Below are positions 8,926-40,158 of a DNA stretch of 41,903 nt, piece after piece (position 1 is the first letter of the stretch; each line of letters starts with the position of its first letter). Made by a program: the position numbers and the translations under genes. Where the stretch lies: assembly GCA_016930135.1 (NCBI GenBank), contig JAFGHM010000015.1:1-41903 (forward strand), written 5' to 3'. This DNA comes from Thermoplasmatota archaeon (GTDB lineage Archaea; Thermoplasmatota; Thermoplasmata; UBA10834). The notes beneath the pieces are model-generated. The model did not search any database and was not told where the DNA came from. It was given only the letters and a program-made list of their open reading frames with translations.

Positions 8926-11900
8926 GTGGGCTACTATCACCAGGTGGCATTATCTTTGGCTGAGGCAAGGGAGGTCCCAGCTGGGTCTTTCCTGTCCAGG
9001 TTCAGAAGGGGGGACAGGGGGCCGAGCGAGTTAAGGAAGTGGTTCGTCGCTAACTGGACCACTCTGTTCATCCTCGCCCTCCTGTTCGCGGTCGCCCTGT
9101 TCGTGCGGACATACTTCGGCTACGACACCGCCATGGATGGCTACCTCGTCTCGGGCGGGTCTGACTCGTACTATTGGCAGCGGATTATCGACTACTCCGC
9201 TGAGACTGGCAAACAGCTGTATTGGGACCCACTGATCAACTACCCGGACGGCATCAGGAACCCCCGTCCGCCGTTCTACAGCATGTCGATTGTCGTTCCC
9301 GCGGTGTTCGCGCAGGGTATGTTCGAGTCCCTGGACGATGCCATAGGCTGGTCCCTGCTCTGGTCGACAGCCTTCTGGGGAGCGCTCACGATCATACCCA
9401 CATACTTCGTGGGCAAGGAGACCTTTGGCAGGAGGGCGGGCCTCGCGGCCGCCTTCTTCCTAGCGGTCATGCCCGCGCATGTCCAGAGGAGCGTGTTCTC
9501 GGACGCTGACCACGACTCGTTCATCCTGTTCTTCATAGTCCTCACATTCTACTTCCTGCTAAGGGCCGTCAAGACTCAGGAACACAAGAGATGGGTCGAG
9601 AACTGGCGCAGCTGGAGCAGTATCAGGGCGGGTCTTGGCGACTATGTGCGCGAGAGCAGGACCCCGATGCTGTACGCGCTGATGGCGGGGGTCGCCTACG
9701 GCTGTGTGATGATAGCTTGGGTAGGGTTCGGCTACGTGACGGTGCTCATACTCGCGTACTACTTGATACAAATCCTTCTCAACAAGTTCAAGGGATTCGA
9801 CTCAACGAGCGTGACCATCATAGTGTCGCTCGCCATGGCTTTCGGCTATCTGCTCGCGTTTCCGGTCTATTACGAACAGAGCCTCATCCCGGTCAGGTTT
9901 GACGTCCCCGTATACCTCTTCGTGTTCGCGGTAGTCTTCGGCATGCTCTTCGTGATATCCAGGGATTATCCTTGGACGCTCACTCTCCCGGCGACATTCC
10001 TGCTGCTCGGTGCGGGGATAGTCATCATCAACGCGATCGACCCCAGCCTCGCCGAGGCGATACTGAGCGGACAGGGCTATTTCGTGAAGAGCAAGCTGTA
10101 CTCAACGATTGCCGAGGCCAGGGCTCCTGACTTCAGCGAACTCGCGATGAGCTTCGGCATGGTGACGTTCTTCCTCTCGCTGACAGGCCTCATCTGGGCC
10201 ATCATCAAGATCCCGAAGAAGGCCACCGCGGAGTACATATTCATAGTCGTCTGGCTAGGAGCCGCAATATTCATGGCCATATCTGCGGGCAGATTCATGT
10301 TCAACGCGGCACCCGCTTTCGCGCTCGCGGCAGCATGGGTCGTCGTCATAATCGTGGACAACCTAGATTTCAACAGCGTCAGGAAGTCGCTCATGGGCGC
10401 GAGCGGATCATACTGGCAGATATTCAGGAAGAGCGTGAAGATCAGGCACATCGTCGGGGTTCTCTTCATCGCGTTCATGGTCATACTCCCCAACGTGTGG
10501 TATGGCACCGATGCCGGCATACCGTCCGAGACGAAGGCCCTCCTGGACAAGGAGATCTACGAGAGCATGCCGAGCTTCATGAGGCCGGACGACTACGACA
10601 GGATCAACGGCTCGAACTGGTACCTCGGTGCCTTCGGCTACTCGATACCGCTGGAGCGGTACTACTTCCCGTCTGCCTGGGAATGGTTCACGGAGTACGA
10701 TTCGCACATACCAGCAGCTGTCGATAGGCCCGCGTATGTGTCATGGTGGGACTACGGTTTCGAGGCGGTCCAGGCGGGCCAGCATCCGACAGTCGCCGAC
10801 AACTTCCAGAACGGTTATCAGATCGCCGGGAACATCATCATGGCCCAGAGCGAGGCCGAGGTCATTGCTCTCTTCTCCTATCGGCTCCTCGAAGTGGCGA
10901 TGAGAGACGCTGAAACTAGAGATGCTCTCCAGGGGATGTGCGAGCGCTACGGAGTCGATTACGAGCGCATCTATGAAATCGTCTTCGGTCCCGTCCAGCC
11001 GATCATAGATGAGGTCCTGGAGGACCCGGCAGTCTACGGCCCCATGGACAGCGACCTGAGCGGTGCCAACGCCAAGATAGTCGCGGCCAGGGTCGAACTG
11101 GTGAAGCTGGACCAAGACGCGTTGGTCGGGTTCTATGGGGAGCTGTGCTCGCTGACCGGCTGGGACATCAGGTACTTCAGCGTCGACTCCAGGATGTTCC
11201 CAAGATCGGGCACTGACACGGGCATATTCTACGCCCCGGCCAAGCTTTCCGACCGCAGGATCGACCAGGGTTCCGTGCCAATTGACTTCTATGGAATCAA
11301 TGCCGTGGACCAGTATGGCCGAGAGGTCGCGCTCGACCAGGTCACGGCCGACATGGTGATAGTCGATTACTCACTGACGTACAAGCCAATGTTCTACAAT
11401 TCGACCTTCTACAGGGCCATGTGCGGCCCCTCGGGATACGAACTTGGTATGTCGAACGATGGCATTCCGAGCCTCTCGGGGACGCTCCAGAGCCTGGAGG
11501 TCATGCCGGGCTGGAACATGGCCCATTTCAGGATGGTCTACAGGACGGCGTACTACAACCCGTACCCGATTGCGGAGATACCTTACCACAGGGACGCCTG
11601 GACTGCGATCAGCCTTGAGGAGGCCCAGGAGCTGCAGACGAAGATACAGAACAATGAGATACAGGGATATGTCGACGACTCGGCGTCCTCCTTCTACAGC
11701 GCAGGAGTCGTCTTCCTGAAGTACTACAAGGGTGCCTATGTCAATGGCACTGTCACCACAGAGGAGGGCTACCCGGTCGCCAATGTCAGGGCGACAGTCC
11801 AAGACGAGTACGGCATCCCGCACATGTCAGTCCTGACAGACTCGGAGGGCAGGTACTCGCTCCTGGCCCCGTTCGGAGAGATCACATTGGTGCTCTCCAT

Positions 11901-14900
11901 GGGCGACACGGTGACCTCGTCCTTGGTCAGCTCGAACATCATAGACAGGCTTGAGTTCAATGTCACGGACGATCAGGCGATGCGGCTCCCGTACGACCTC
12001 GACGGCGACGGGATGTACGACTACATGATAACTAAGGACTACCAGATGCGAGAGACACAGGTCACCGCGGACCTGTTCTGGGACATTGACGAGGAAGGCA
12101 ACTACACGGCCGAGACCGACGAGCTCATCCAGGACGCCACGGTATATGCAATGGACCTCGTGACCGGAAGCATGTTCGAGATAGACGCCCCGGAGGGCAC
12201 CTTCGACACCACACTCCCGCCAGGCACTTACGACATGTGGGCGAGAATATACGGCGTCAATGTCACGGTCAGCACCAACCTCACTGTTGCCGCTGGCCAG
12301 AAGTCCACTCAGAAGCTTGCCCTCAAGCCGAGCATGCTCTATGGCTATCTTTCCTACCTCGACGGTGAGTCAGCGATCGGCATCGAGCTCGTCATGACCG
12401 AGCTGAGCAGAGGATACCGGGTATCCGCGCTCACCGACGACGAGGGCGCGTTCAGGTTCGAGAAGCTGCTCTCCGGTGACTACAGCCTGACGACCACTGA
12501 GCCAGGATACACGCTCTCCGCCGTCACACTCACCATCACTGCGGGATCCGATATCTTCAACAACCTGACCATCTTCCCGGAGGCAACGATCCGGGCGAGG
12601 GTGCTCATGGACGGCGCCGGGGTGCCCTATGCCGCGTACATGCTGTCCGACATCTACAGCCCAGGAACGGTCGTCTCCGGGTTGACCGATGCCAGCGGCC
12701 GCATCGAGGTCAAGGTGCTCAAAGGCGTCTGGACCCTTTACGCAGTCCAGACCGTGGGCTCGGAGTCGTACGCGGGTGCAAAGACATTGGACCTGAGGAC
12801 TGCAGATTCGGTTTCCACAGCGGTATCCCTTGGCCAGGCCTCATCCGTCTCGGGCGGCGTGAGGAATCCCTTGGGAGCGACGATACGCAGCGGCCATGTG
12901 GTCTTCGAGAGCTCGGAAGGAGTCAGGATACCTGCGCGCATAGACACTCTGGGCGTTTACAAGATGACTCTGCCGTACGGTACCTACGAGGTGACATCCT
13001 ACTCTACGACCGGCAGTTGCCTCTTCTCGGGCACCACGGTCGTGACCGGAGCGGCGACCAGCTACCAGGTCGAGATGATCGAGGGCGTGCTCGTCGAAGG
13101 GGCGATATGGCTGGACAGGGACAGCACGGGCACCTTGTCGGCGCAGGAACTGGGCAGATACGCGAAGCTGCGCCTGACAGATGAGAGCGGCGCGTTGTTC
13201 ACTGCAGCCGCGGCCGAAGACGGCAACTTCACGCTCGTGTACCCCAAGGCCGCTGATGGCACTCTCAGCGTCGGGGAAGCCGGTTTCTCCGAGTGGTCCG
13301 TCACTTCCAGGTTCGTCAACGACACGACGAACATCGGCGCGGTCGTTGGTCCTGACGAGGTTGTCGTGCAAGGACGGATCGCATACGACGGACAGGGCCT
13401 CAGAGGTATCAGAGTGACTTTCACACCCCAGGTGCTCCTGCTCGATGTCGTGACCGCGGTCACATCGTCCGGCGGATACTACACGGCCAGCCTCCTGCCG
13501 GCGGTCTACACTGTGTCGGTCGACCAGGACACGAACCCGATGGGTGGAGAGAGGTACATTTGCGAAGAGGAGTTCACGCTCCTTCCGTCGGGCGTCCCGG
13601 TCCAGTATTCGCTCACGCCGGACAAGAAGGTCGAGATGCACGGTGTCCTCTTCGGGGCTGAGTCGGACATGGAGCTCAGCCTTTCGGGTCCGGAGACGAG
13701 GGCTCTGACCCTCGGCGGCACGATCAGCTACTCCGCATATCTGCTGCCCGGGGAGTACAACGTGTACGCGAAGGGCTACCTGGGCGCCGACGTGTACGCG
13801 AACGTGACATCGGTCACACTCTCGGTCGATTCCCGTCAGCACGATTTCCAGTTGTATCCAGCTCACGAGCTCCGAGGATCGATCGACATCGACGGCAGGC
13901 CAGTCACGAAGGAAGTCACCATCAGGGCCGTGTCGGCCCTTGGCGAGGCGGTCGAGACGACGACTTCGCTGTCGTCCTACTCCATCGAGCTCCCGCAGGG
14001 CCTGTACACGGTCAACTTCAGTATGGAGGATACCAAGACCGAAGGTGGCAGGACACTGTATGTGGAATATGAGGCCGAGGCTCCCATACTGATCAGCACG
14101 GACGACCAGAGGCTGAACCCGTCGCTCTCGAGGCGCCTTGACAACACCACATTCAGCGGGACTGTCTACGGGACCGGAGGGGCGCCCGTCAGGGCATACC
14201 TGCGCATGGTCCCGAACACGGTCTTCGGGCTGGGGCTGGAATTCTGGACGGACACCAGCGGCTCCTTCAACGTCTCGATGCAGCCGGGAGATTACACAGT
14301 ACACATCCTCCGGTCGCAGGACAAGAGCGCATACTTGGGCACATTGAGGCTCGAGCGCGACGTGTCTATGGAGCAGTCGTTCAACCTGACCTCAGGCCTG
14401 TACATATCAGGCAGGGTGTTCGTGGCGGACGCAGGCGCGTCGGTCGATGTATCAGTTGCCACCGGCAGCGCCAAGCTGCAGGTCACATCCGATGCCTCCG
14501 GTGATTTCAGGGTACTTGTCACCGAGGGGAGCTACATACTCTCAGCCACGACGACGCGGGTCGAGAACGACCTCACAGTGAGGTACACGGGCAGCCTCGA
14601 CGTGAATGTGGAGGATACGGACAGCTACGTCACTCTCAATCTGTTGAGGAGTTCCACGCGCACCGTCTCGGTCAGCTGGGATAGGAACCTGACGCAGACA
14701 GTACCGCCCGGCGTCCTCGTGAAGTACGCCTTCACTGTCACGAACACGGGCAACATAGAGGACAAATGGAGCGTGTCCTCTTCGACGACCGGCTTCAACA
14801 TCTCTTTCACCCCCTCGACCTTCGAGCTGGGCCTGGGCTCTGAGAGCACGGCCACAGTCGTAGCCGAGATAACCGCCCATGACGACGTTGCCGCTGGCGA

Positions 14901-15510
14901 GGCTCTGATAAGCGCAGTCGTCCGCTCGAGCGCGCAGTCGTCCGCGAGAGCCACAGTCAACCTCTACCTCAACGTGTCGCCTGTGCACGATGTGCGCGTG
15001 TTCAGCTTGAACGAGTCCACTTATGTCACCGGCTGGAGCACGATCACCAAGTTCACCGTGAACAACACGGGCAACATCGAGGACACGTTCCTGGTGAGCG
15101 TGTCCAACCTCGATTCGCTCCTCTCGCTGGGCTGGTCTGCAACCATAATAGACCCCGCCACCGGCGACGAGGTGACTGAGGTCCAGGTCGATGCCTTCGA
15201 CGGCATGGAGCTTGCAGTCAACTTCACGGCCACGAGGAGCACTCCGGACGTCACCGCCTCCGCACTGGTGTTCGCAGCGTCTGCAGAACAGCCGGCTTCT
15301 GGCAGCTACGGAGCGGTCCAGGTAAGGCTTCCCGACCTCGTCATCGGGCCCGGGTATGTCGACGCCGAGAGGGCAGACATCTCCTACGAGTACGACGTGT
15401 CCAGGGTTCTGCTGAACATAAGCTTGGCGATCGCGCTCGTAGCGCTGGTCGTGATGTTCTTCGTGCTGCGCAAGAGGAAGGGCTTGGGCAAGGGAGGTGC
15501 TGCGAAGTGA
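8926..15510 (+). CDS. aglB: STT3/AglB oligosaccharyltransferase with very long extracytoplasmic C-terminal extension
   Basis: N-terminal multi-TM region, SGGSDSYYW and DADHDSF acidic loop motifs, WWDYG at 10744-10758. After ~11737, repeated carboxypeptidase-regulatory-like beads, two NEW3/CARDB-like domains and a terminal TM helix with a basic tail. GTG 8944 is an alternative start. Confidence 0.93.
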   Translation: MGYYHQVALSLAEAREVPAGSFLSRFRRGDRGPSELRKWFVANWTTLFILALLFAVALFVRTYFGYDTAMDGYLVSGGSDSYYWQRIIDYSAETGKQLYWDPLINYPDGIRNPRPPFYSMSIVVPAVFAQGMFESLDDAIGWSLLWSTAFWGALTIIPTYFVGKETFGRRAGLAAAFFLAVMPAHVQRSVFSDADHDSFILFFIVLTFYFLLRAVKTQEHKRWVENWRSWSSIRAGLGDYVRESRTPMLYALMAGVAYGCVMIAWVGFGYVTVLILAYYLIQILLNKFKGFDSTSVTIIVSLAMAFGYLLAFPVYYEQSLIPVRFDVPVYLFVFAVVFGMLFVISRDYPWTLTLPATFLLLGAGIVIINAIDPSLAEAILSGQGYFVKSKLYSTIAEARAPDFSELAMSFGMVTFFLSLTGLIWAIIKIPKKATAEYIFIVVWLGAAIFMAISAGRFMFNAAPAFALAAAWVVVIIVDNLDFNSVRKSLMGASGSYWQIFRKSVKIRHIVGVLFIAFMVILPNVWYGTDAGIPSETKALLDKEIYESMPSFMRPDDYDRINGSNWYLGAFGYSIPLERYYFPSAWEWFTEYDSHIPAAVDRPAYVSWWDYGFEAVQAGQHPTVADNFQNGYQIAGNIIMAQSEAEVIALFSYRLLEVAMRDAETRDALQGMCERYGVDYERIYEIVFGPVQPIIDEVLEDPAVYGPMDSDLSGANAKIVAARVELVKLDQDALVGFYGELCSLTGWDIRYFSVDSRMFPRSGTDTGIFYAPAKLSDRRIDQGSVPIDFYGINAVDQYGREVALDQVTADMVIVDYSLTYKPMFYNSTFYRAMCGPSGYELGMSNDGIPSLSGTLQSLEVMPGWNMAHFRMVYRTAYYNPYPIAEIPYHRDAWTAISLEEAQELQTKIQNNEIQGYVDDSASSFYSAGVVFLKYYKGAYVNGTVTTEEGYPVANVRATVQDEYGIPHMSVLTDSEGRYSLLAPFGEITLVLSMGDTVTSSLVSSNIIDRLEFNVTDDQAMRLPYDLDGDGMYDYMITKDYQMRETQVTADLFWDIDEEGNYTAETDELIQDATVYAMDLVTGSMFEIDAPEGTFDTTLPPGTYDMWARIYGVNVTVSTNLTVAAGQKSTQKLALKPSMLYGYLSYLDGESAIGIELVMTELSRGYRVSALTDDEGAFRFEKLLSGDYSLTTTEPGYTLSAVTLTITAGSDIFNNLTIFPEATIRARVLMDGAGVPYAAYMLSDIYSPGTVVSGLTDASGRIEVKVLKGVWTLYAVQTVGSESYAGAKTLDLRTADSVSTAVSLGQASSVSGGVRNPLGATIRSGHVVFESSEGVRIPARIDTLGVYKMTLPYGTYEVTSYSTTGSCLFSGTTVVTGAATSYQVEMIEGVLVEGAIWLDRDSTGTLSAQELGRYAKLRLTDESGALFTAAAAEDGNFTLVYPKAADGTLSVGEAGFSEWSVTSRFVNDTTNIGAVVGPDEVVVQGRIAYDGQGLRGIRVTFTPQVLLLDVVTAVTSSGGYYTASLLPAVYTVSVDQDTNPMGGERYICEEEFTLLPSGVPVQYSLTPDKKVEMHGVLFGAESDMELSLSGPETRALTLGGTISYSAYLLPGEYNVYAKGYLGADVYANVTSVTLSVDSRQHDFQLYPAHELRGSIDIDGRPVTKEVTIRAVSALGEAVETTTSLSSYSIELPQGLYTVNFSMEDTKTEGGRTLYVEYEAEAPILISTDDQRLNPSLSRRLDNTTFSGTVYGTGGAPVRAYLRMVPNTVFGLGLEFWTDTSGSFNVSMQPGDYTVHILRSQDKSAYLGTLRLERDVSMEQSFNLTSGLYISGRVFVADAGASVDVSVATGSAKLQVTSDASGDFRVLVTEGSYILSATTTRVENDLTVRYTGSLDVNVEDTDSYVTLNLLRSSTRTVSVSWDRNLTQTVPPGVLVKYAFTVTNTGNIEDKWSVSSSTTGFNISFTPSTFELGLGSESTATVVAEITAHDDVAAGEALISAVVRSSAQSSARATVNLYLNVSPVHDVRVFSLNESTYVTGWSTITKFTVNNTGNIEDTFLVSVSNLDSLLSLGWSATIIDPATGDEVTEVQVDAFDGMELAVNFTATRSTPDVTASALVFAASAEQPASGSYGAVQVRLPDLVIGPGYVDAERADISYEYDVSRVLLNISLAIALVALVVMFFVLRKRKGLGKGGAAK

Positions 15511-30990: not shown

Positions 30991-31064
30991 GCCCGAGTGG
31001 GGTAGCTTGGATATCCTAGAAGCCTGCGGAGCTTCGGACCTGGGTTCGAATCCCAGCTCGGGCG
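30991..31064 (+). tRNA. tRNA-Arg (anticodon GCG)
   Basis: Acceptor GCCCGAG/CTCGGGC, anticodon stem GAAGC/GCTTC with loop CTGCGGA, T arm CTGGG-TTCGAAT-CCCAG, discriminator G. Confidence 0.9.
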
Positions 31065-31097
31065 CACCTGCTTCTCGACTCGAGAAACGGCAGTTGG

Positions 31098-32522
31098 TCA
31101 TCTGAGCTTCTTGATCATGTCCTCCATGCGCTGGGATTCGTCCTTTGTCACCACGGGCGTCCTGGGCCGGCTCAGCATCTTCCTCGCCTCATCATGAGCT
31201 CTCCTGATCAGCTCTCCTCTCGGACGAAGCTCCATAGGTCCGGATAGGGTAGCCTCTGGAAACGATGTCGACATGAACTCCTTCTTGAACCGCGTCATCG
31301 TATGCCTCTTGCTCAGGAAGCTGCCGTCGATACCGCCATCTCGGATGGTCTGGAAAGATATCGCGTCAGCTCCTGTGTCGAACTCCCTCGAGAAGCCCCT
31401 CGCGACTTCCCAAACCCAGCAGTCGACAAGTAGCTGCTCGAACGACGCGCCAGCCGCCTCATCAATTCCGCCAATCCCTGCTCCCAGGTCGGAATCGACC
31501 ATCGACTGGATCGCCATGTGCGGGACGCCTTCCTCTATGCTTCCGAGAGAGAGGCTCATGCGGTCGAGCCCAATGCCAGCAACCATTGTAGGAATCCCAT
31601 AGTATCTCCCCATCTGCCCCATGCCTGCCCGAAGCAAGCATGTCTCGAAGGCCCCATAGCTGATGGATCCGGTCTTCAGATCGCCCGCGCTGGAATCGCT
31701 GCTGTAGATCCATGGCGCCCCGTTCTTGGCGGTCTGAGATATCACCAGGCTCGCGAGGTTCTCCGCATTCGCCTGGGCTATCGTTCCGGAAACGGTCGCT
31801 GGCGAGGTGAAGCCAGCCACCGCAGCGGTCATGGCGACCACTGGTATTCCCGCCCTTGCATACTCTGCCTGGGCCTCCGCCATGCCCCCTTCGAACGTGA
31901 GAGGGGAGATCGGGCACAAGCATGCCGATAGGATGGGCCTCTTAGCGAGCGCATCCTCCCCTTCCGTGAGTATTGATGCCATGTCTATCGAATGCCTCGC
32001 CTCGGCCGCATTCGCCGCCGATGTCTGCAAGTGCTTCACAGTGTATTCGAATCCAAGCTTCGCCTCCACGAGGTACTTGAGGTGGGCCGGTTGTTCGATA
32101 GCTCCAACCATCCCCCACCAGAAATCTATCTGAGGCATCTCGTTGATTAGAATCGAGAAGTCCCTGACGTCTTCCGAGTTCGAGCATCTCGACTCGCCAG
32201 TGACCAGATCCTTCACGAACAAGCCCTCACCACCGTTGGCGATGAAGGCTCTATCCTTTGTCGGCAACTTGAGGTCCCATCTCTTGTCTCTGGCCGCCAG
32301 AACGAAGGATTTCGGAGCGGATCTGACGGACTCCTTGACAAGCTCCTCCGGGACTAGTATTCTCTTGCCGTCCTTGCTCGTGGCCGCGCCGGCATCCGTC
32401 AGCATGTCGCAAGTGCTCTTGCTGTGGATGACCACACCGACCTCTCTCAGCACTCTCAATGTGGTCTCATGAATCCGCTCTATCTCTTCACGCTGAAGGA
32501 AATCGATCTTTGGTCTGGCCAT
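31098..32522 (-). CDS. MttB-family (trimethylamine methyltransferase superfamily) protein, non-pyrrolysine
   Basis: MttB-like from IERIHETTLRVLREVGVVIHS to DGSFLSKRHTMTRFKKEFM; full-length with no in-frame amber. Confidence 0.88.
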   Translation of the reverse strand: MARPKIDFLQREEIERIHETTLRVLREVGVVIHSKSTCDMLTDAGAATSKDGKRILVPEELVKESVRSAPKSFVLAARDKRWDLKLPTKDRAFIANGGEGLFVKDLVTGESRCSNSEDVRDFSILINEMPQIDFWWGMVGAIEQPAHLKYLVEAKLGFEYTVKHLQTSAANAAEARHSIDMASILTEGEDALAKRPILSACLCPISPLTFEGGMAEAQAEYARAGIPVVAMTAAVAGFTSPATVSGTIAQANAENLASLVISQTAKNGAPWIYSSDSSAGDLKTGSISYGAFETCLLRAGMGQMGRYYGIPTMVAGIGLDRMSLSLGSIEEGVPHMAIQSMVDSDLGAGIGGIDEAAGASFEQLLVDCWVWEVARGFSREFDTGADAISFQTIRDGGIDGSFLSKRHTMTRFKKEFMSTSFPEATLSGPMELRPRGELIRRAHDEARKMLSRPRTPVVTKDESQRMEDMIKKLR

Positions 32523-32643
32523 TGGCGAGCCACCTCGCTTTCGGTCGGGTGAGGCACTCGAGGCGAAAGAATCTTTTGGTCGTCAGGGTCAGCCCGGCCA
32601 CATCTCGCCGGCCTTCAGCTCCCAGAGGCACGACTCTGCCATC

Positions 32644-32667
32644 CCCCACCTGCAGAGAATGGTGGGG
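32644..32667. repeat. Inverted repeat CCCCACC-N10-GGTGGGG in divergent intergenic region
   Basis: Perfect 7-bp arms 32644-32650 and 32661-32667, between the minus-strand MttB gene and the plus-strand corrinoid protein gene. Confidence 0.7.
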
Positions 32668-32739
32668 AGTATGCCGTCCTCAATACTCGTCTCTCTTCTC
32701 TGAGATCGGCTTCTGGTTATCATCTCCAATCAGCACGAG

Positions 32740-32749
32740 GTTTATAATA
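32740..32749 (+). promoter_or_regulatory. Probable TATA box upstream of corrinoid protein gene
   Basis: GGTTTATAATACG, an AT-rich element in a 300-bp intergenic region. Confidence 0.45.
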
Positions 32750-32862
32750 CGAGGACCGGTTGTCGAAGCCTGTCCAGAATCGAATCGCTAGCATCGTCAT
32801 GGAAGTGAAGCGAGAATGCTGAGATGATCAGGGATATCCGAATCCACGAACGAGGTGTCGTC

Positions 32863-33516
32863 ATGGCAGATGGCAAAGAGGCAATCTTGAGTGAGCTTGA
32901 GAACAGCGTGAAGAACCTGCAAGAGGAGGCCGCTATGGAGGCAGCGAGGAAAGCCCTTTCGGCCGGCGTCAGTCCAATCGACGCAATAGAGAAGGGTTTG
33001 GCAAAGGGCATCCGACAGGTCGGAGAGAAGTTCGAGCGGAAGGAGATGTTCGTAGTTGAGCTGATCTATGCCGCTGAGATAATGAGCAATGCGATCAAGA
33101 TCCTGGAACCCGAGCTGAGGAAGAGCAAGGAGAAGAGAAACGTCTTGGCTCATGTCGTCCTTGGGACTGTTGCTGGAGACATACATGATATCGGCAAGAA
33201 CCTTGTGAGGATCATGCTTGAGGCGAGCGGGTTCGAGGTCAGGGACATCGGCAAGGATGCGCCGATTGACGGCTTCATCAGCGCGGCCAAGGAGATGGGA
33301 GCTGAGATAGTCGGTGCGTCGTCCCTCATGACCACCACGGTTTCGGTCCAGAAGGAAGTTGTGGACGCGCTCAGGAGCGGGGGCATAGAAGCGCCTCTTA
33401 TGGTCGGCGGAGCGGCCGTGACTGAGGCTTGGGCCAAGGAGATAGGCGCGGTCTACTCGTCGGACGCGGGCTCAGCTGTGAGCGTGGCAAAGAGCCTCGT
33501 TGGCAAGGGAGGGTGA
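32863..33516 (+). CDS. Corrinoid (B12-binding) methyltransferase protein, MttC/MtbC-like
   Basis: N-terminal helical cap plus GDIHDIGKNLVRIMLEASGFEVRDIGKDAP (DxHxxG at 33178-33195), GASSLMTTT, VGGAAV. ATG 32824 is an upstream alternative. Confidence 0.93.
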   Translation: MADGKEAILSELENSVKNLQEEAAMEAARKALSAGVSPIDAIEKGLAKGIRQVGEKFERKEMFVVELIYAAEIMSNAIKILEPELRKSKEKRNVLAHVVLGTVAGDIHDIGKNLVRIMLEASGFEVRDIGKDAPIDGFISAAKEMGAEIVGASSLMTTTVSVQKEVVDALRSGGIEAPLMVGGAAVTEAWAKEIGAVYSSDAGSAVSVAKSLVGKGG

Positions 33517-33520
33517 TGTC

Positions 33521-34981
33521 ATGGGTCACACAATGGGGCGCGGCCTTTACGGGATGCGGCCGCTCGATGTGATGGATCCCGTGGACGCCGAGAAGATACA
33601 TGTCAACTCGCTGCATCTGCTGGAGACGATGGGCATCAAGGTCGTCAGCGCGGAGGGTCTGAGACTCCTCAAAGAGGCCGGTGCTGAAGTCGATGAGAAG
33701 GCGAAGATAGCCAAGATCCCTTCTTACCTCGTCGCAGATGCAGTCAGTAAGTGCAGAAGGCCAGTAAGGCTGTGCGCGAGGAACCCGAAGAATGACATGG
33801 TGCTCGACGGAGAGCATTGTCATATCTGCACAGATGGCACAGGCCTCTCGACGATCGACCTCGAGACTGGCGTCAGGCGCGATTCGACGAAGAAGGATGT
33901 GGCCGATTCCGCGAGAGTGGTGGACTATCTGGAGATGATGAACATATACTATCCGATCGTGACGCCTCTGGACGTGCCCAAGCACTCCCACACGCTGCAC
34001 GAGTTCGATGCGACCTTCAACAACTGCGAGAAGCACATAACCAGCGGGGCCACTTACATGAAGGAGGAGGCGCAGTACGAGCTCAAGATGGCGGCCGCGG
34101 TCGCCGGAGGATGGGATGAGCTCAAGAGAAGGCCGCTCGTCTCGGCTCTCACTTGTACGACCTCTCCTATGGTCCTCGGAATGACGACCGATGCGGCCAT
34201 CGAATTCGTAAGGGCGGGCTGCCCACCGATGATGATGACGATGCCGCTGATAGGAGCGACCTCTCCGATGACGGTCGCCGGGGCGATCCTAGTAGGGAAC
34301 GCACAGGTGCTCGCGCTCACCACCGTGTGCCAGCTCGCTGCGCCGGGCTCTCCTGTATGCTACAGCACGGAACCCATGGCCATGGATATCCAGTCGGGTC
34401 TGTTCGAGGGCCTGTTCCCTGCCGCGAACATGGTCAGAGCCGCTCATGTGCAGATGGCGAGATACTACAAGATACCGATATTCGTCGGCGGCTGGGGCTC
34501 TTGCTCGAAGCTGCCCGATGCACAGGCCGCCTATGAGAAGGCCCTGTCTGCGTTCACATACTATCTGGCAGGAGCCGACATAACCTCTGGCCCCGGACTC
34601 CTCGAGAACTGGACGGTCCTGTCCTACGAGCAGCTCCTGATAGACTACGAGATGTACACTATAATGCTGGACATGCTGAAGGGGATCGAGGTCAACGACG
34701 ACACGATGGCGCTCGATGTCATCATGAACGTCGGCCACGAAGGCCATTTCCTGGGAAAGAAGCACACCCTCGACCACTTCAAGACGATGTGGCAGCCAAT
34801 GATAACTGACGGCCAGACCTACCACAGCTGGAAGGCCGCGGGCTCTAAGTCTGCTGCCGACAACGCCAGGGCAAAGGCCAAGGAGATCCTCAAGACGCAC
34901 GAGGTAACGCCGCTACCAGATGACGTGAAGAAGGAGTTCGCAGCGATCATCAAGGAAGGGGAGCAGAAGATACCGCACTAG
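33521..34981 (+). CDS. MttB-family methyltransferase (second paralogue), non-pyrrolysine
   Basis: VNSLHLLETMGIKVVSAEGLRLLKEAGAEVD...SYEQLLIDYEMYTIM...GHEGHFLGKKHTLDHFKTMWQP; full-length; terminates at TAG with another in-frame TAG six codons later. Confidence 0.9.
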   Translation: MGHTMGRGLYGMRPLDVMDPVDAEKIHVNSLHLLETMGIKVVSAEGLRLLKEAGAEVDEKAKIAKIPSYLVADAVSKCRRPVRLCARNPKNDMVLDGEHCHICTDGTGLSTIDLETGVRRDSTKKDVADSARVVDYLEMMNIYYPIVTPLDVPKHSHTLHEFDATFNNCEKHITSGATYMKEEAQYELKMAAAVAGGWDELKRRPLVSALTCTTSPMVLGMTTDAAIEFVRAGCPPMMMTMPLIGATSPMTVAGAILVGNAQVLALTTVCQLAAPGSPVCYSTEPMAMDIQSGLFEGLFPAANMVRAAHVQMARYYKIPIFVGGWGSCSKLPDAQAAYEKALSAFTYYLAGADITSGPGLLENWTVLSYEQLLIDYEMYTIMLDMLKGIEVNDDTMALDVIMNVGHEGHFLGKKHTLDHFKTMWQPMITDGQTYHSWKAAGSKSAADNARAKAKEILKTHEVTPLPDDVKKEFAAIIKEGEQKIPH

Positions 34982-35228
34982 AAGAGGGCCGATGCCGAGT
35001 AGGAGCAGCTGAGTTGCCCAGAGCGCCTTCTTCATTGTCTGAGAAGGACGAGTCATCCTCAGGAAGTGCTCCGAAACGCAGGCTGCGCAACTCCGGGATG
35101 GGGTGTCACTGCACTGATGAATCCCGCTTCCGCGTCTTCTCATTTGTCTGTCCAAACGGTAAAATACGCGTCCCTCAATCCCGATGTGGTTGCGCGAGAT
35201 GCCAGTGCCAGCTGCGGAGACCGCCCAT

Positions 35229-36395
35229 ATGACCTCTGAATATGACGGTATGCTGAAAGTCGCTGAGATGTGCATTCTCTGCAGATGCGGCTGCTGCAAG
35301 GACGAGTGTCCTATGTATTCTGAGATCCTCGAGGAGAGCATATCCCCCAAGGGCAGGAATCAGCTCGTGCATGCGCTCCTCACCGGCCTCCTCGAGCCTG
35401 ACGAGCGTGCTGTCAGGATCGCCTACTCCTGTCTCCTCTGCAAGAGAGATGAATACTCATGCACCGCAGAGCTGAGGAACGCGGAAGCGACGGAGACTCT
35501 GAGAGAATATCTCCTCTCCGTCGGCATGCCGCTGCTCCCCGAGCATCAGCTGCTTGTCAAGAGCCTCGAGAACTACGGCAACCCCTGGCAGGAGCCCCGC
35601 TCATCCAGGAAGCGATGGGCCAAGGGGCTGAAGGACAAGAAGGTCGTGCCGGGCAAGACCGAGACCCTGTTCTATGTCGGCTGCACCTTCTCGCTCGATA
35701 GGACATTGCTGGACAGCCCTCGAGCGCTGGCGCATCTTCTTGAATGCGCGGGTGAGGATTTCGGCCTGCTGCTCGAGGACGAGCTGTGTTGCGGCTCGAC
35801 AGTGAAGAGGCTTGGCCATGTCCAACTCTTCCAGAAGCTCAGGAGGGAGAATGAGCAGAGAATCAGGGCTACAGGGGTCAGAAGGATAGTCACTGCCTGC
35901 GCCGGATGCTACAAGACCCTGAGTCAGGACTACAAAGGACTGTCGCAGGATGTGAAGGTGCTGCACTCAACGGAGTATCTGGCGGAGCTTGTCGGTTCGG
36001 GCAGATTGACATTCAAGGGAGCGGATATCAAGGTGACTTATCACGATCCGTGCCACCTCGGCAGGCACGCAGAGGTCTACGATGCCCCTCGAACGCTCCT
36101 GCACTCGGTCTCAGGACTTGAGCTGGTCGAGATGAAGACATCCAGGGAGCTCGCAAGGTGTTGCGGAGGCGGTGCGGGCGTCAAGACCGCATATCCGGAG
36201 ATATCGCAGAAGGCAGCTGTCAGGCGCATCAGAGAGGCTGAGAAGACAGGCGCATCTGCGCTCGTAACCGCGTGTCCGTTCTGCATGCAGAGCCTCAAGG
36301 ACGCCGCCCAAAGCGTTGGATCCTCTATCGATGTCGTTGAGCTGTGCGTATTCCTCGACAGATATGTCGAGTGTCCGAAGGAGGACCAGCGATGA
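35229..36395 (+). CDS. Fe-S oxidoreductase with CCG domains (GlcF/HdrD/LutA-like)
   Basis: CILCRCGCCKDECP and CLLCKRDEYSC Fe-S motifs; CCG-type motifs CAGCYKTL and CCGGGAGVKT. TATA-like TAAAATACG near 35159 favours ATG 35229; ORF open to 35184. Confidence 0.85.
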   Translation: MTSEYDGMLKVAEMCILCRCGCCKDECPMYSEILEESISPKGRNQLVHALLTGLLEPDERAVRIAYSCLLCKRDEYSCTAELRNAEATETLREYLLSVGMPLLPEHQLLVKSLENYGNPWQEPRSSRKRWAKGLKDKKVVPGKTETLFYVGCTFSLDRTLLDSPRALAHLLECAGEDFGLLLEDELCCGSTVKRLGHVQLFQKLRRENEQRIRATGVRRIVTACAGCYKTLSQDYKGLSQDVKVLHSTEYLAELVGSGRLTFKGADIKVTYHDPCHLGRHAEVYDAPRTLLHSVSGLELVEMKTSRELARCCGGGAGVKTAYPEISQKAAVRRIREAEKTGASALVTACPFCMQSLKDAAQSVGSSIDVVELCVFLDRYVECPKEDQR

Positions 36396-37792
36396 TGCCC
36401 GATTCCGTGAAGGATGAAGTCAAGAGGCAGCTCGTGGAGGCTCTCGGGGAGAGAGGGCTTCTCTGGGAGAAGGCCGATCTTCTTCCTTACTGCAAGGATA
36501 CCTACAGGGTCAGGTTCGAGGACGAGTACAGGTACATGCCCGATTTCGTCGTTCTGCCGGAGACAACCGAGGAAGTGAAGAAGGTCGTCAGCATTGCAGC
36601 CAGCAGAAAGATCCCCCTGATTCCCAAGGGCGGCGGCTCCAACAGGACCGGGATGTTGGTACCGACTCACGGCGGGATAGTTGTCGACACCATCAGGATG
36701 AACAAGCTCATCGAGATCAGTGTGCCAGATCTGTGTGTGACGGTCCAGCCAGGCATGACTCTGAAGGACCTTGGTGACGGGCTCGCTGAGCATGGGCTTT
36801 GGCTGACACAAGAGCAGGGCTCGTTGAAGATGGCGACCGTCGGAGGAGCAATCTCCACATCAGCCTTCAGCAGGCGGCACCAGAAGTATGGAGCCATGGC
36901 GGACTGCGTGATGTCGCTCGAGGTTGTCCTTGCAGACGGAAGCGTCCTGAGGACAGGCCCGAAGGTGCTCTACACGTCCACGGGATATAGGCTCCACCAG
37001 CTGTTCATAGGCGCGGAGGGCACTCTGGGGATAATCACCGAGGCCACCCTCAGGGTCGAGCCCTTGCCAGAGGCGCAGGAGGTGGTGCTGGGCTTCTTCG
37101 ACGATTTCTGGGCCGCTATCGATGCTGCCAAGAGGGTCATGGCGTCGGGCGTCGACTTCTCCGGGGGCGAGGCGTACGAGATCGTCGATCATTCGGAGCT
37201 GCGAGCCCCGCCTGACAAGAAGGCCCTGTTCTACGCCCTGGTTCACGGCACCAAGGAAGAGGTGCAAGCAGTGTCAGAAAACCTCAGGAGGACGATCGAG
37301 GGATCAGGGGGTATCCTAGCCGATCACGAGGTCGCCAATCAGTTCCTCACGACCTATACAAAGCAATGGTGCGGAGCCCGGGCGCTGACAGGTTACGAGG
37401 ATGTGCTGACGACCTACGTTCCTATGGAGAAGATGCGTCAGTACTATGACACCCTGTGGAACGAGATAGCCCCGAAATATGGCATCGAGCCTCTTCCCGG
37501 TGAGAAGTACAGCTTGGACGTCGGTAAGTACAGGATGGCTGGCGGAAGGTACCGCTTGCCCAAGGGCGACCGGGTCTGGGAGAGGTATCAGGAAGTGCTC
37601 AAAGAGATAGCCGCGCTCGCGACCGGCCTGGGCGGCTCGGTCCAGGCCTGCCATGGCGTGGGGATTCAACACAGAGACAACATGGTGCTGGAGTACTCCG
37701 ACGTGGCCTTGGAGGCTATGCGCGGGATCAAACACCTGCTCGATCCCGACAACATAATGAACCCCGGGAAGAAGATACCAGAGAAGGAGTGA
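36392..37792 (+). CDS. FAD-linked oxidase, GlcD/D-lactate dehydrogenase-like
   Basis: FVVLPETTEEVKKVVSIAASRKIPLIPKGGGSNRTGMLVPTHGGIVVDT (FAD_binding_4), C-terminal CHGVGIQHRDNM...LLDPDNIMNPGK. ATGA overlap with upstream gene. Confidence 0.92.
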   Translation: MMPDSVKDEVKRQLVEALGERGLLWEKADLLPYCKDTYRVRFEDEYRYMPDFVVLPETTEEVKKVVSIAASRKIPLIPKGGGSNRTGMLVPTHGGIVVDTIRMNKLIEISVPDLCVTVQPGMTLKDLGDGLAEHGLWLTQEQGSLKMATVGGAISTSAFSRRHQKYGAMADCVMSLEVVLADGSVLRTGPKVLYTSTGYRLHQLFIGAEGTLGIITEATLRVEPLPEAQEVVLGFFDDFWAAIDAAKRVMASGVDFSGGEAYEIVDHSELRAPPDKKALFYALVHGTKEEVQAVSENLRRTIEGSGGILADHEVANQFLTTYTKQWCGARALTGYEDVLTTYVPMEKMRQYYDTLWNEIAPKYGIEPLPGEKYSLDVGKYRMAGGRYRLPKGDRVWERYQEVLKEIAALATGLGGSVQACHGVGIQHRDNMVLEYSDVALEAMRGIKHLLDPDNIMNPGKKIPEKE

Positions 37793-38244: not shown

Positions 38245-40158
38245 ATGGCCGCGAAATCAACGGCGTCCGAGGAACCCTCAACAGCGCCCCCTGCTGGAAG
38301 CTCGAAGATGATGCTGGATTGGCAAGAGCGCTACAAGGAGAAGGTGAGGACGCCGGAACAGGCGGTCGCGACGATACGCCGAGGCGACAAAGTATTCATA
38401 GGTTCTGGCGCGGCCGAGCCGCAGACGATCGTCAAGGCGCTAATCGAGACTGCTGGGAGGCTCGCGGACACCAGGATAATGCACATCATGACCCTCGGCG
38501 TGGCGCCTTATACCGAGGAGAAGTTCACCGACCAGTTCAGGCATAACGCCTTCTTCATAGGCGCTAACACGAGACAGGCTGTGGCGGAGGGCAGGGCGGA
38601 CTACACGCCCGTGTTTCTGTCCGAGATCCCTGCCCTGTTCAAGTCCGGACAGATGCCAATCGACGTCGCCATAATCCAGGTCTCCCCGCCTGACAAGTTC
38701 GGGTTCTGTAGCTACGGCGTGTCAACGGATGTCGTCAAGTCCGCCACAGAGTCGGCGGCGAAGGTCATCGCGGAGATCAATCCGCAGATGCCCAGGGCGC
38801 TCGGGGACTGCTTCGTGAACTTGAACGACATCGACATAGCCGTGCCGGTGGACGAGCCCCTGCTCTGCTCCGCCTATGTCAAGGCGGACGATGTGTCAAG
38901 GCGGATCGGCAGGAACATCGCCAGTCTGATTGAGGACGGCTCGACCATGCAGATGGGCATAGGCACCATACCCGATTCCGTGCTTCTTCACCTCACGGGG
39001 AAGAAGGACCTGGGTATCCATACCGAGATGTTCTCGGACGGGCTCATGGAGCTCGTGGACAAGGGCATCATAACGAACAGGAGGAAGACGCTTCACCCGG
39101 GGAAGACCATCGCCTCGTTCTGCATAGGAAGCAGGAAGCTCTACGAATACGTGGATGACAACCCAGCCATAGAGTTCCATCCGACCGAGCACACCAACGA
39201 CCCCTTCATAATCGCACAGAACGACAAGATGGTCTCGATAAACTCGGCGATAGAGGTGGACCTCACGGGCCAGGTGTGCGCAGACTCCCTCGGCTCGATG
39301 TTCTACTCTGGCATAGGCGGCCAGGTGGACTTCGTCAGGGGCGCTTCGAGGTCTAAGGGAGGCAAGCCGATAATCGCCCTGCCCTCGACGGCGAAGGACG
39401 GCAAGATATCGAGAATAAGCGTGAACCTGCGGGAGGGCGCGGGAGTTGTCACCACCAGGGGCGATGTGCACTACGTGGTGACCGAGTGGGGCATCGCATA
39501 TCTCCACGGGAAGAACATCCGGGAGAGGGCGATGGCCCTGATAGGCATCGCGCACCCCAAGTTCAGGAAGGACCTCATGGAGGGTGCGAAGAAGCTCAAC
39601 TACATCTACAAGGACCAGATACTGCCAGACGAGGAGGCCGTCTATCCGGAGGAACTCGAGACCGTCATGACCACAAAGGACGGTTCCGAGCTGATCGTCA
39701 GGCCCATCAGGCCCACGGACGAGGAGATGCTCAGCGACATGTTCTACGACCTCAGCGATCAGACCATCATAAACAGGTTCTTCAGTATGCTCAAGTCGAT
39801 GCCTCACAGGAGGCTGCAGCAGTTCTGCTGTATCGATTATCAGAGCGAGATGTCCCTCGTGGCCATCACGAATGAGGGCGTCAAGCAGAAGGTCGTCGGC
39901 CTCGGCAGCTACCATCTCAACCCGGCCACGCACAGGGCGGAGATAGCCTTCATGGTCGCGGATGCGTGGCAGGGCAAGGGCATAGGCACGTTCATGATGA
40001 AGTCCCTGGTCAGGATTGCGAAGTCGAAGAACATCAAGGGCTTCACCGCCGAGGTGCTCAGGGACAATGTGGCCATGATAGCCCTCATGCACAAGGCGGG
40101 CGTGGAGCCGAAGTCCAACATCGTCGACGGCTCCTACGTCTTCACGATGGACTTCTGA
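38245..40158 (+). CDS. Acetyl-CoA hydrolase/transferase-family protein fused to C-terminal GNAT acetyltransferase
   Basis: CoA-transferase region (GSGAAEPQTIVKAL, MQMGIGTIPDSVL, EVDLTGQVCADSLG, VTEWGIAYLHGKNIRERAMALIGIAHPKFR); GNAT from ~39682 (LIVRPIRPTDEEML, WQGKGIGTFMM). Confidence 0.92.
   Translation: MAAKSTASEEPSTAPPAGSSKMMLDWQERYKEKVRTPEQAVATIRRGDKVFIGSGAAEPQTIVKALIETAGRLADTRIMHIMTLGVAPYTEEKFTDQFRHNAFFIGANTRQAVAEGRADYTPVFLSEIPALFKSGQMPIDVAIIQVSPPDKFGFCSYGVSTDVVKSATESAAKVIAEINPQMPRALGDCFVNLNDIDIAVPVDEPLLCSAYVKADDVSRRIGRNIASLIEDGSTMQMGIGTIPDSVLLHLTGKKDLGIHTEMFSDGLMELVDKGIITNRRKTLHPGKTIASFCIGSRKLYEYVDDNPAIEFHPTEHTNDPFIIAQNDKMVSINSAIEVDLTGQVCADSLGSMFYSGIGGQVDFVRGASRSKGGKPIIALPSTAKDGKISRISVNLREGAGVVTTRGDVHYVVTEWGIAYLHGKNIRERAMALIGIAHPKFRKDLMEGAKKLNYIYKDQILPDEEAVYPEELETVMTTKDGSELIVRPIRPTDEEMLSDMFYDLSDQTIINRFFSMLKSMPHRRLQQFCCIDYQSEMSLVAITNEGVKQKVVGLGSYHLNPATHRAEIAFMVADAWQGKGIGTFMMKSLVRIAKSKNIKGFTAEVLRDNVAMIALMHKAGVEPKSNIVDGSYVFTMDF

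Follow-up and report, generated by a model that had tools for sequence, protein, structure and literature searches.

Eubacterium limosum has 42 MttB-type proteins, and three of these, MtpB, MtcB and MtyB, all feed the corrinoid protein MtqC, from which the methyl group passes via MtqA to tetrahydrofolate (H4F) (PMC8604678). In the MtgB-MtgC-MtgA system of Desulfitobacterium hafniense the second methyltransferase is of the MtrH type, PF02007 (PMC8630106). Within the Thermoplasmata, methylotrophic acetogenesis has been proposed for Ca. Gimiplasmatales (COMBO-56-21, about 1.9 Mb), which carry mttB, mttC, mtmB, acsA-E and MTHFR and have no Mcr; no second methyltransferase was found there, and the step was left to "an undescribed protein" (PMC11264602). 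A 41,903-nucleotide stretch of a Thermoplasmatota archaeon (contig JAFGHM010000015.1, termed here the window) has at positions 31098-34981 two genes for MttB homologues, MttB1 and MttB2, with a gene for a corrinoid protein (CorrP) between them. The locus itself is of a known kind. What makes it of interest is the size of the paralogue set to which it belongs, together with a named candidate for the missing step.

MttB1 and MttB2 probably act as first methyltransferases, each specific to its substrate, in a catabolic system that depends on corrinoids, with a second methyltransferase encoded on contig C52 of the source genome (G000) and a folate/acetyl-CoA outlet, in a non-methanogenic archaeon that does not use pyrrolysine (Pyl). 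We give this reading a probability of about 0.68; the catalytic roles are assigned from protein families and gene order. The simplest account would be an archaeal version of the quaternary-amine:H4F system known from E. limosum. As in MtpB/MtcB/MtyB-MtqC-MtqA-RamQ, there are many non-Pyl MttB paralogues and few corrinoid proteins, a reductive activase (here RACo-type, by family) and a Wood-Ljungdahl outlet, and the second methyltransferase is apparently of the same AcsE/MtvA-type family, in a comparison that did not include the MtqA sequence itself. Unlike the E. limosum system, this one has an archaeal host, three types of corrinoid protein (all with MttBs beside them), an order-specific second-methyltransferase subfamily, and carbon monoxide dehydrogenase (CODH) and acetyl-CoA synthase (ACS) fused in one chain.

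Comparisons within the source order cover 17 genomes including the source genome; these are incomplete metagenome-assembled genomes (MAGs). The order is likely that of Ca. Gimiplasmatales, and its gene inventory is closely similar. In contrast to the published study, a candidate second methyltransferase is named here and the paralogue expansion is counted.

The three genes

An earlier reading of the DNA, made from the sequence only, had described a divergent MttB gene, a corrinoid protein with a DIHDIG motif and a second MttB gene. All three are found in place as intact open reading frames, are confirmed by Pfam and are not chance frames:

31098..32522, minus strand: MttB1, 474 aa; non-pyrrolysine MttB-superfamily methyltransferase of a divergent subclade (Pfam MTTB, 3.1e-71)
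32824..33516, plus strand: CorrP, MttC/MtbC/MtqC-like corrinoid protein, 230 aa (B12-binding_2, 5.5e-18; B12-binding, 2.7e-23)
33500..34981, plus strand: MttB2, 493 aa from the first start; non-pyrrolysine MttB-superfamily methyltransferase (Pfam MTTB, 2.5e-94)

MttB1 and MttB2 match PF06253 (MttB superfamily) over nearly their full length, with 240 and 316 bits against a curated cut-off of 25. CorrP consists of PF02607 and PF02310, the B12-binding cap and core domains, and DIHDIG, at residue 119, is its cobalt-ligand motif (DxHxxG). Its scores are under the cut-offs of the named subfamilies: TIGR02370 (188.8 bits, cut-off 215.3), NF041607 (MtbC; 187.6, cut-off 350) and NF047995 (MtgC; 164.8, cut-off 310). 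Judged by these profiles, CorrP is related to methylotrophic corrinoid proteins and assignable to no named subfamily.

The true start of CorrP is likely the ATG at 32863, because this matches the MxDKxxIL start of its relatives. The start of MttB2 is likely the ATG at 33521, which has gggagg just ahead of it. With these corrected starts the two genes therefore nearly abut.

Two subfamilies of MttB

The amino acid sequences of MttB1 and MttB2 show an identity of 27%, and in a 111-protein tree (a quick search with SH-aLRT support only and several long branches) they lie in separate, strongly supported clades. The identity and the separate clades rule out recent duplicates. The Pyl MttBs form a group of their own in this tree, and MtgB pairs with 4yyc (support 99), apart from both window proteins. 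Thus neither window protein groups with Pyl-MttB or MtgB, the two references of the proposed phylogeny check that were run. The nearest relatives of MttB1 are copies on G007:C113 (61% identity), G015:C59 (52%) and G000:C65 (49%). By their tree positions, both proteins belong to an uncharacterised radiation.

The AlphaFold2 model of MttB1 (pLDDT 89.5) has MtgB (9yce) as its best PDB match, with a TM-score of 0.84, and MttB is about equally close. The likeness to D. hafniense MtgB is thus one of a non-Pyl MttB fold; the amino acid identity to MtgB is 23-27%, and the clade is different. For MttB2 an MttB/MtgB-like fold is predicted from sequence. MttB2 is 31% identical to Methanosarcina barkeri MttB, and CorrP has the same architecture as the corrinoid protein of the Pyl MttB-MttC systems of Methanosarcina and Methanomassiliicoccales.

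The sequence-only reading saw the two paralogues as markedly different, which is correct, and placed the difference in the active site, which is not. The quoted C-terminal stretches, SFEQLL.../DGSFLSKRHT in MttB1 and SYEQLL.../GHEGHFLGKKHT in MttB2, align to residues 376-393 and 413-424 of M. barkeri MttB. In MttB the TIM barrel spans residues 82-395 and the dimerisation loop residues 396-452, and in the MttB-MttC complex this loop takes part in holding the partner's corrinoid protein (PMC9842639). By this alignment residues 376-393 are the final helix of the barrel and 413-424 lie in the dimerisation loop, outside the substrate pocket. His423 and Thr424 of the loop are kept in nearly the whole group.

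Physiological substrates have been identified for only six members of the MttB superfamily (PMC12155760), and with both window proteins in an uncharacterised radiation it could be asked whether MttB1, MttB2 or both use other donors, i.e. non-acidic amines, methyl-sulfur, methoxy or halogenated compounds. Methyltransferases implicated in dichloromethane fermentation are discussed together with the superfamily in one study (PMC9768040). The non-Pyl members with identified substrates, however, act on acidic quaternary amines or phosphocholine (PMC12155760), and other donors are improbable. The bathyarchaeial "MtgB" of aromatic O-demethylation was considered as a relevant MttB and set aside; it is a protein of 300 aa that shows no homology to the known MT1s (first methyltransferases) (PMC10989822).

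Absence of pyrrolysine

That both MttBs are of the non-pyrrolysine branch, as had been proposed, is borne out by the alignment and the genome searches. Neither gene has an internal stop. All 18 MttB homologues of the source genome lack an in-frame TAG; one contains an in-frame TGA. MttB1 and MttB2 both carry Gly where M. barkeri MttB has Pyl334, and Ser or Ala where it has Tyr364. The trimethylamine MttB equivalog TIGR02369 (cut-off 525 bits) is not reached by MttB1 (313.7) or MttB2 (473.9). PylS over the cut-off was found in 0/17 genomes of the order; the M. acetivorans control passes. The PylS matches that do occur are far under the cut-off and are also seen in 13/14 controls, i.e. they display a general class-II synthetase similarity, and pyrrolysine use was rejected. 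These residues and the lack of PylS over the cut-off and of Mcr set the locus apart from the Pyl MttB-MttC systems. A large non-Pyl MttB set from the same class as the pyrrolysine-using Thermoplasmata should be useful for following the shift between quaternary-amine and trimethylamine chemistry in the superfamily.

One relative (G002) encodes an MttB homologue with a single in-frame TAG (G002:C99:10011-11435), and has no PylS over the cut-off; the gene may be a pseudogene or the TAG a sequence error.

An MtmB-family protein is encoded by stop-free open frames at L077:13312-14694 (minus strand; G000:C27), L053:12130-13515 and L044:6387-7769; its PF05369 match is from a scan of the L053 copy. 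All three genes adjoin a corrinoid protein and MttBs. It reads as a non-Pyl MtmB homologue, by its sequence, in genomes without PylS over the cut-off.

A candidate second methyltransferase

No second methyltransferase and no RamA/RACo was found among the scanned open reading frames of the window, as the sequence-only reading had said. Candidates for both are present elsewhere in the genome. The candidate methyltransferase is as follows:

372-1262 of G000:C52, outside the window: AcsE/MtqA-type methyltransferase candidate (PF00809; NCBIfam match)

The C52 sequence scores 267.5 with the NCBIfam model of methyl-H4F:corrinoid methyltransferase, for which the cut-off is 259. It is near AcsE (2yci) and the THF-binding component of O-demethylation (4o0q/4o1f), and also near the folate domain of MetH. 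Four residues, D/N/D/N, are aligned at what we take to be the four pterin-contacting positions of AcsE. CdmA is 59% identical to MtqA, and a published phylogeny includes it together with MtvA, OdmD and AcsE (PMC13222342); because of this placement, the AcsE/MtqA-type family is a fitting one for a second methyltransferase.

Orthologues of the C52 methyltransferase (at least 59% identity; e.g. G008:C4:67533-68423) are found in 16/17 members of the order and in 0/27 other genomes tested, in which the AcsE-like proteins are all more distant (at most 35%). The enzyme and the MttB radiation co-occur in an order-specific manner. In the sister-family genome G016 the orthologue lies between CorrP and RACo, and in several genomes of family f1 it shares a conserved locus with CorrP, two MttBs and genes for substrate-binding proteins and permeases. 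Unlike in D. hafniense, an MtrH-type enzyme (PF02007) was found in 0/17 genomes of the order, with positive controls, and this type was rejected as the second methyltransferase. On this sequence evidence the C52 methyltransferase is the best candidate for the missing enzyme. It makes the step missing from the published proposal for Thermoplasmata testable with a few purified proteins.

Gene inventory of the order

There are 18 MttB copies in the source genome and 10-26 per genome across the 17, with genome sizes of roughly 1.1-2.1 Mb. Corrinoid proteins number three in the source genome, and the ratio of MttBs to corrinoid proteins is 298:47 over all 17. The 18:3 ratio points to several MttBs per corrinoid protein. 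An example of local expansion is L058 (G007:C95:5916-14403), where five MttBs and one corrinoid protein form a single cluster flanked by peptide-type ABC permeases. In the phylum as a whole, 22 of 243 sampled genomes have MttB homologues (at most six candidates scored per genome); these mostly belong to family f6, where there are 1-5 copies, usually containing an in-frame TAG.

McrA was searched for, as the earlier reading had suggested, and is present in 0/17 genomes of the order, with positive controls, and methanogenesis was rejected. RACo-type activases (a family assignment) and MTHFR are each present in 17/17, with two activases in the source genome, and ACS in 12/17. On contig G000:C40 a CooC-like ATPase, a CODH-ACS fusion, two subunits of the CFeSP (corrinoid iron-sulfur protein) type, RACo and AcsE are neighbours. 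The fusion (L172:6552-10688, plus strand) is a 1378-aa single chain with a bacterial-type CODH catalytic subunit at residues 28-651 and a bacterial-type ACS at 672-1377. Open frames of 1309-1446 aa encode it in most relatives with ACS (G009, G011, G008 and others), and the PDB entries that it matches have CODH and ACS as separate chains. A literature search on the fusion gave nothing on point.

The C52 methyltransferase also resembles the MetH folate domain, so a biosynthetic use has to be weighed, in which the methyl groups would serve to make methionine or one-carbon units instead of yielding energy by acetogenesis, and the AcsE/MetH-like protein would move them from folate to the corrinoid protein or the other way. 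In marine bacteria glycine betaine demethylation is reported to be intertwined with methionine synthesis (PMC12478193). The number of MttB copies in such small genomes looks catabolic, though, as do the substrate-binding protein and permease genes that adjoin several MttBs of the order, and CODH/ACS is present in 12/17. A biosynthetic use is unlikely.

A catabolic role may extend further. There is about an even chance that the whole order lives on methyl groups of many quaternary amines, with 10-26 Pyl-free MttBs per genome sharing 1-4 corrinoid proteins and an order-specific AcsE/MtqA-type second methyltransferase leading to folate. If true, this would fill the missing step of the methylotrophic acetogenesis proposed for Thermoplasmata.

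Gene order in relatives

The conserved unit in relatives is CorrP followed by MttB2 (CorrP orthologues 70-77% and MttB2 orthologues 69-83% identical). Gene maps had suggested a conserved triad of divergent MttB, CorrP and MttB. The tree refutes this: the divergent MttB next to CorrP-MttB2 in relatives is of another clade than MttB1. The source-genome copy of that other subfamily is on contig C7 (L089), ending beside an apparent superoxide dismutase gene. G007:C113 is collinear with both flanks of the window locus (some 9 kb in total, about 70-71% identity) and has a different MttB in place of CorrP-MttB2.

CorrP-MttB2 appears to have moved next to MttB1. The juxtaposition could then be a recent rearrangement or an assembly join with no functional meaning, and the two MttBs need not share a corrinoid protein; both the other MttB subfamily beside CorrP-MttB2 in relatives and the changed middle of G007:C113 speak for this. 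Against a join are the two collinear flanks; moreover, the junction has no sequence in common with the end of contig C7, and the GC content is smooth across it. A real rearrangement is likelier than a join. A meaningless juxtaposition is, on the whole, a doubtful explanation, though one that carries some weight. The sequence-only reading took the divergent pair as a two-donor module feeding one corrinoid protein. For the pair as a fixed module this is not supported, since in relatives another MttB subfamily takes the place of MttB1; the sharing of corrinoid proteins is supported at the genome scale.

Two genes downstream of MttB2 are:

35184..36395, plus strand: CCG-domain Fe-S protein, GlcF/TfrB/HdrD-like (Pfam CCG, 1.1e-33); also in G007:C113
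36344..37792, plus strand: GlcD-like FAD-linked oxidase (FAD_binding_4, 6.9e-39; FAD-oxidase_C, 5.7e-25); also beside MttB1 in G007:C113

Their frames overlap, and the two are likely co-transcribed. This Fe-S/FAD pair (window 35184-37792, plus strand; L076:10338-12550) stays beside MttB1 in G007, unlike CorrP-MttB2. A link of the pair to the substrate or product of MttB1 is possible.

Proposed pathway

In the catabolic pathway proposed here, MttB1 and MttB2 would each take one methyl group from a donor of its own, most likely a quaternary amine with an acidic group, e.g. a betaine. The methyl would go onto the Co(I) corrinoid of CorrP, although MttB1 perhaps loads another of the three corrinoid proteins of the genome. 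A RACo-type activase would keep the corrinoid as Co(I). One shared AcsE/MtqA-type enzyme, that of C52, would pass the methyl to H4F, and methyl-H4F would either be oxidised via MTHFR or, together with CO, be turned into acetyl-CoA by CODH/ACS. The substrates, the direction of flow, the pairing of MttBs with corrinoid proteins and folate (rather than methanopterin) as acceptor are all presumed.

Several observations weigh against this pathway. The pairing of MttB1 with CorrP-MttB2 is not conserved. A K-x-PDxQA stretch common to MttB2, MtgB and MttB is missing from MttB1, and because of this the function of MttB1 may be altered. Folate may not be the acceptor; the genes that point to it are the DHPS-like, MTHFR and AcsE-like ones. 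ACS was found neither in the two sister-family genomes nor in three genomes of family f1, all of these being incomplete MAGs.

Other features of the window

Upstream of the three genes are ABC exporter genes and a tRNA gene:

30991..31065, plus strand: tRNA-Arg(gcg) rather than tRNA-Pyl; lies between the ABC exporter genes and MttB1

Promoter and terminator scans gave nothing informative. The window also displays the archaeal markers RNA polymerase A'/A''/B, GatD and GatE. The domain spacing of RNA polymerase A'' had raised the suspicion of an intein; none is seen in the translation. The open reading frame at 38245-40158 (plus strand) encodes a fusion of an acyl-CoA:acetate CoA-transferase-like protein with a GNAT/Pat-like acetyltransferase domain. 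A 2194-aa protein is encoded at 8926-15510 (plus strand); in it an STT3 oligosaccharyltransferase domain precedes carboxypeptidase-regulatory-like repeats.

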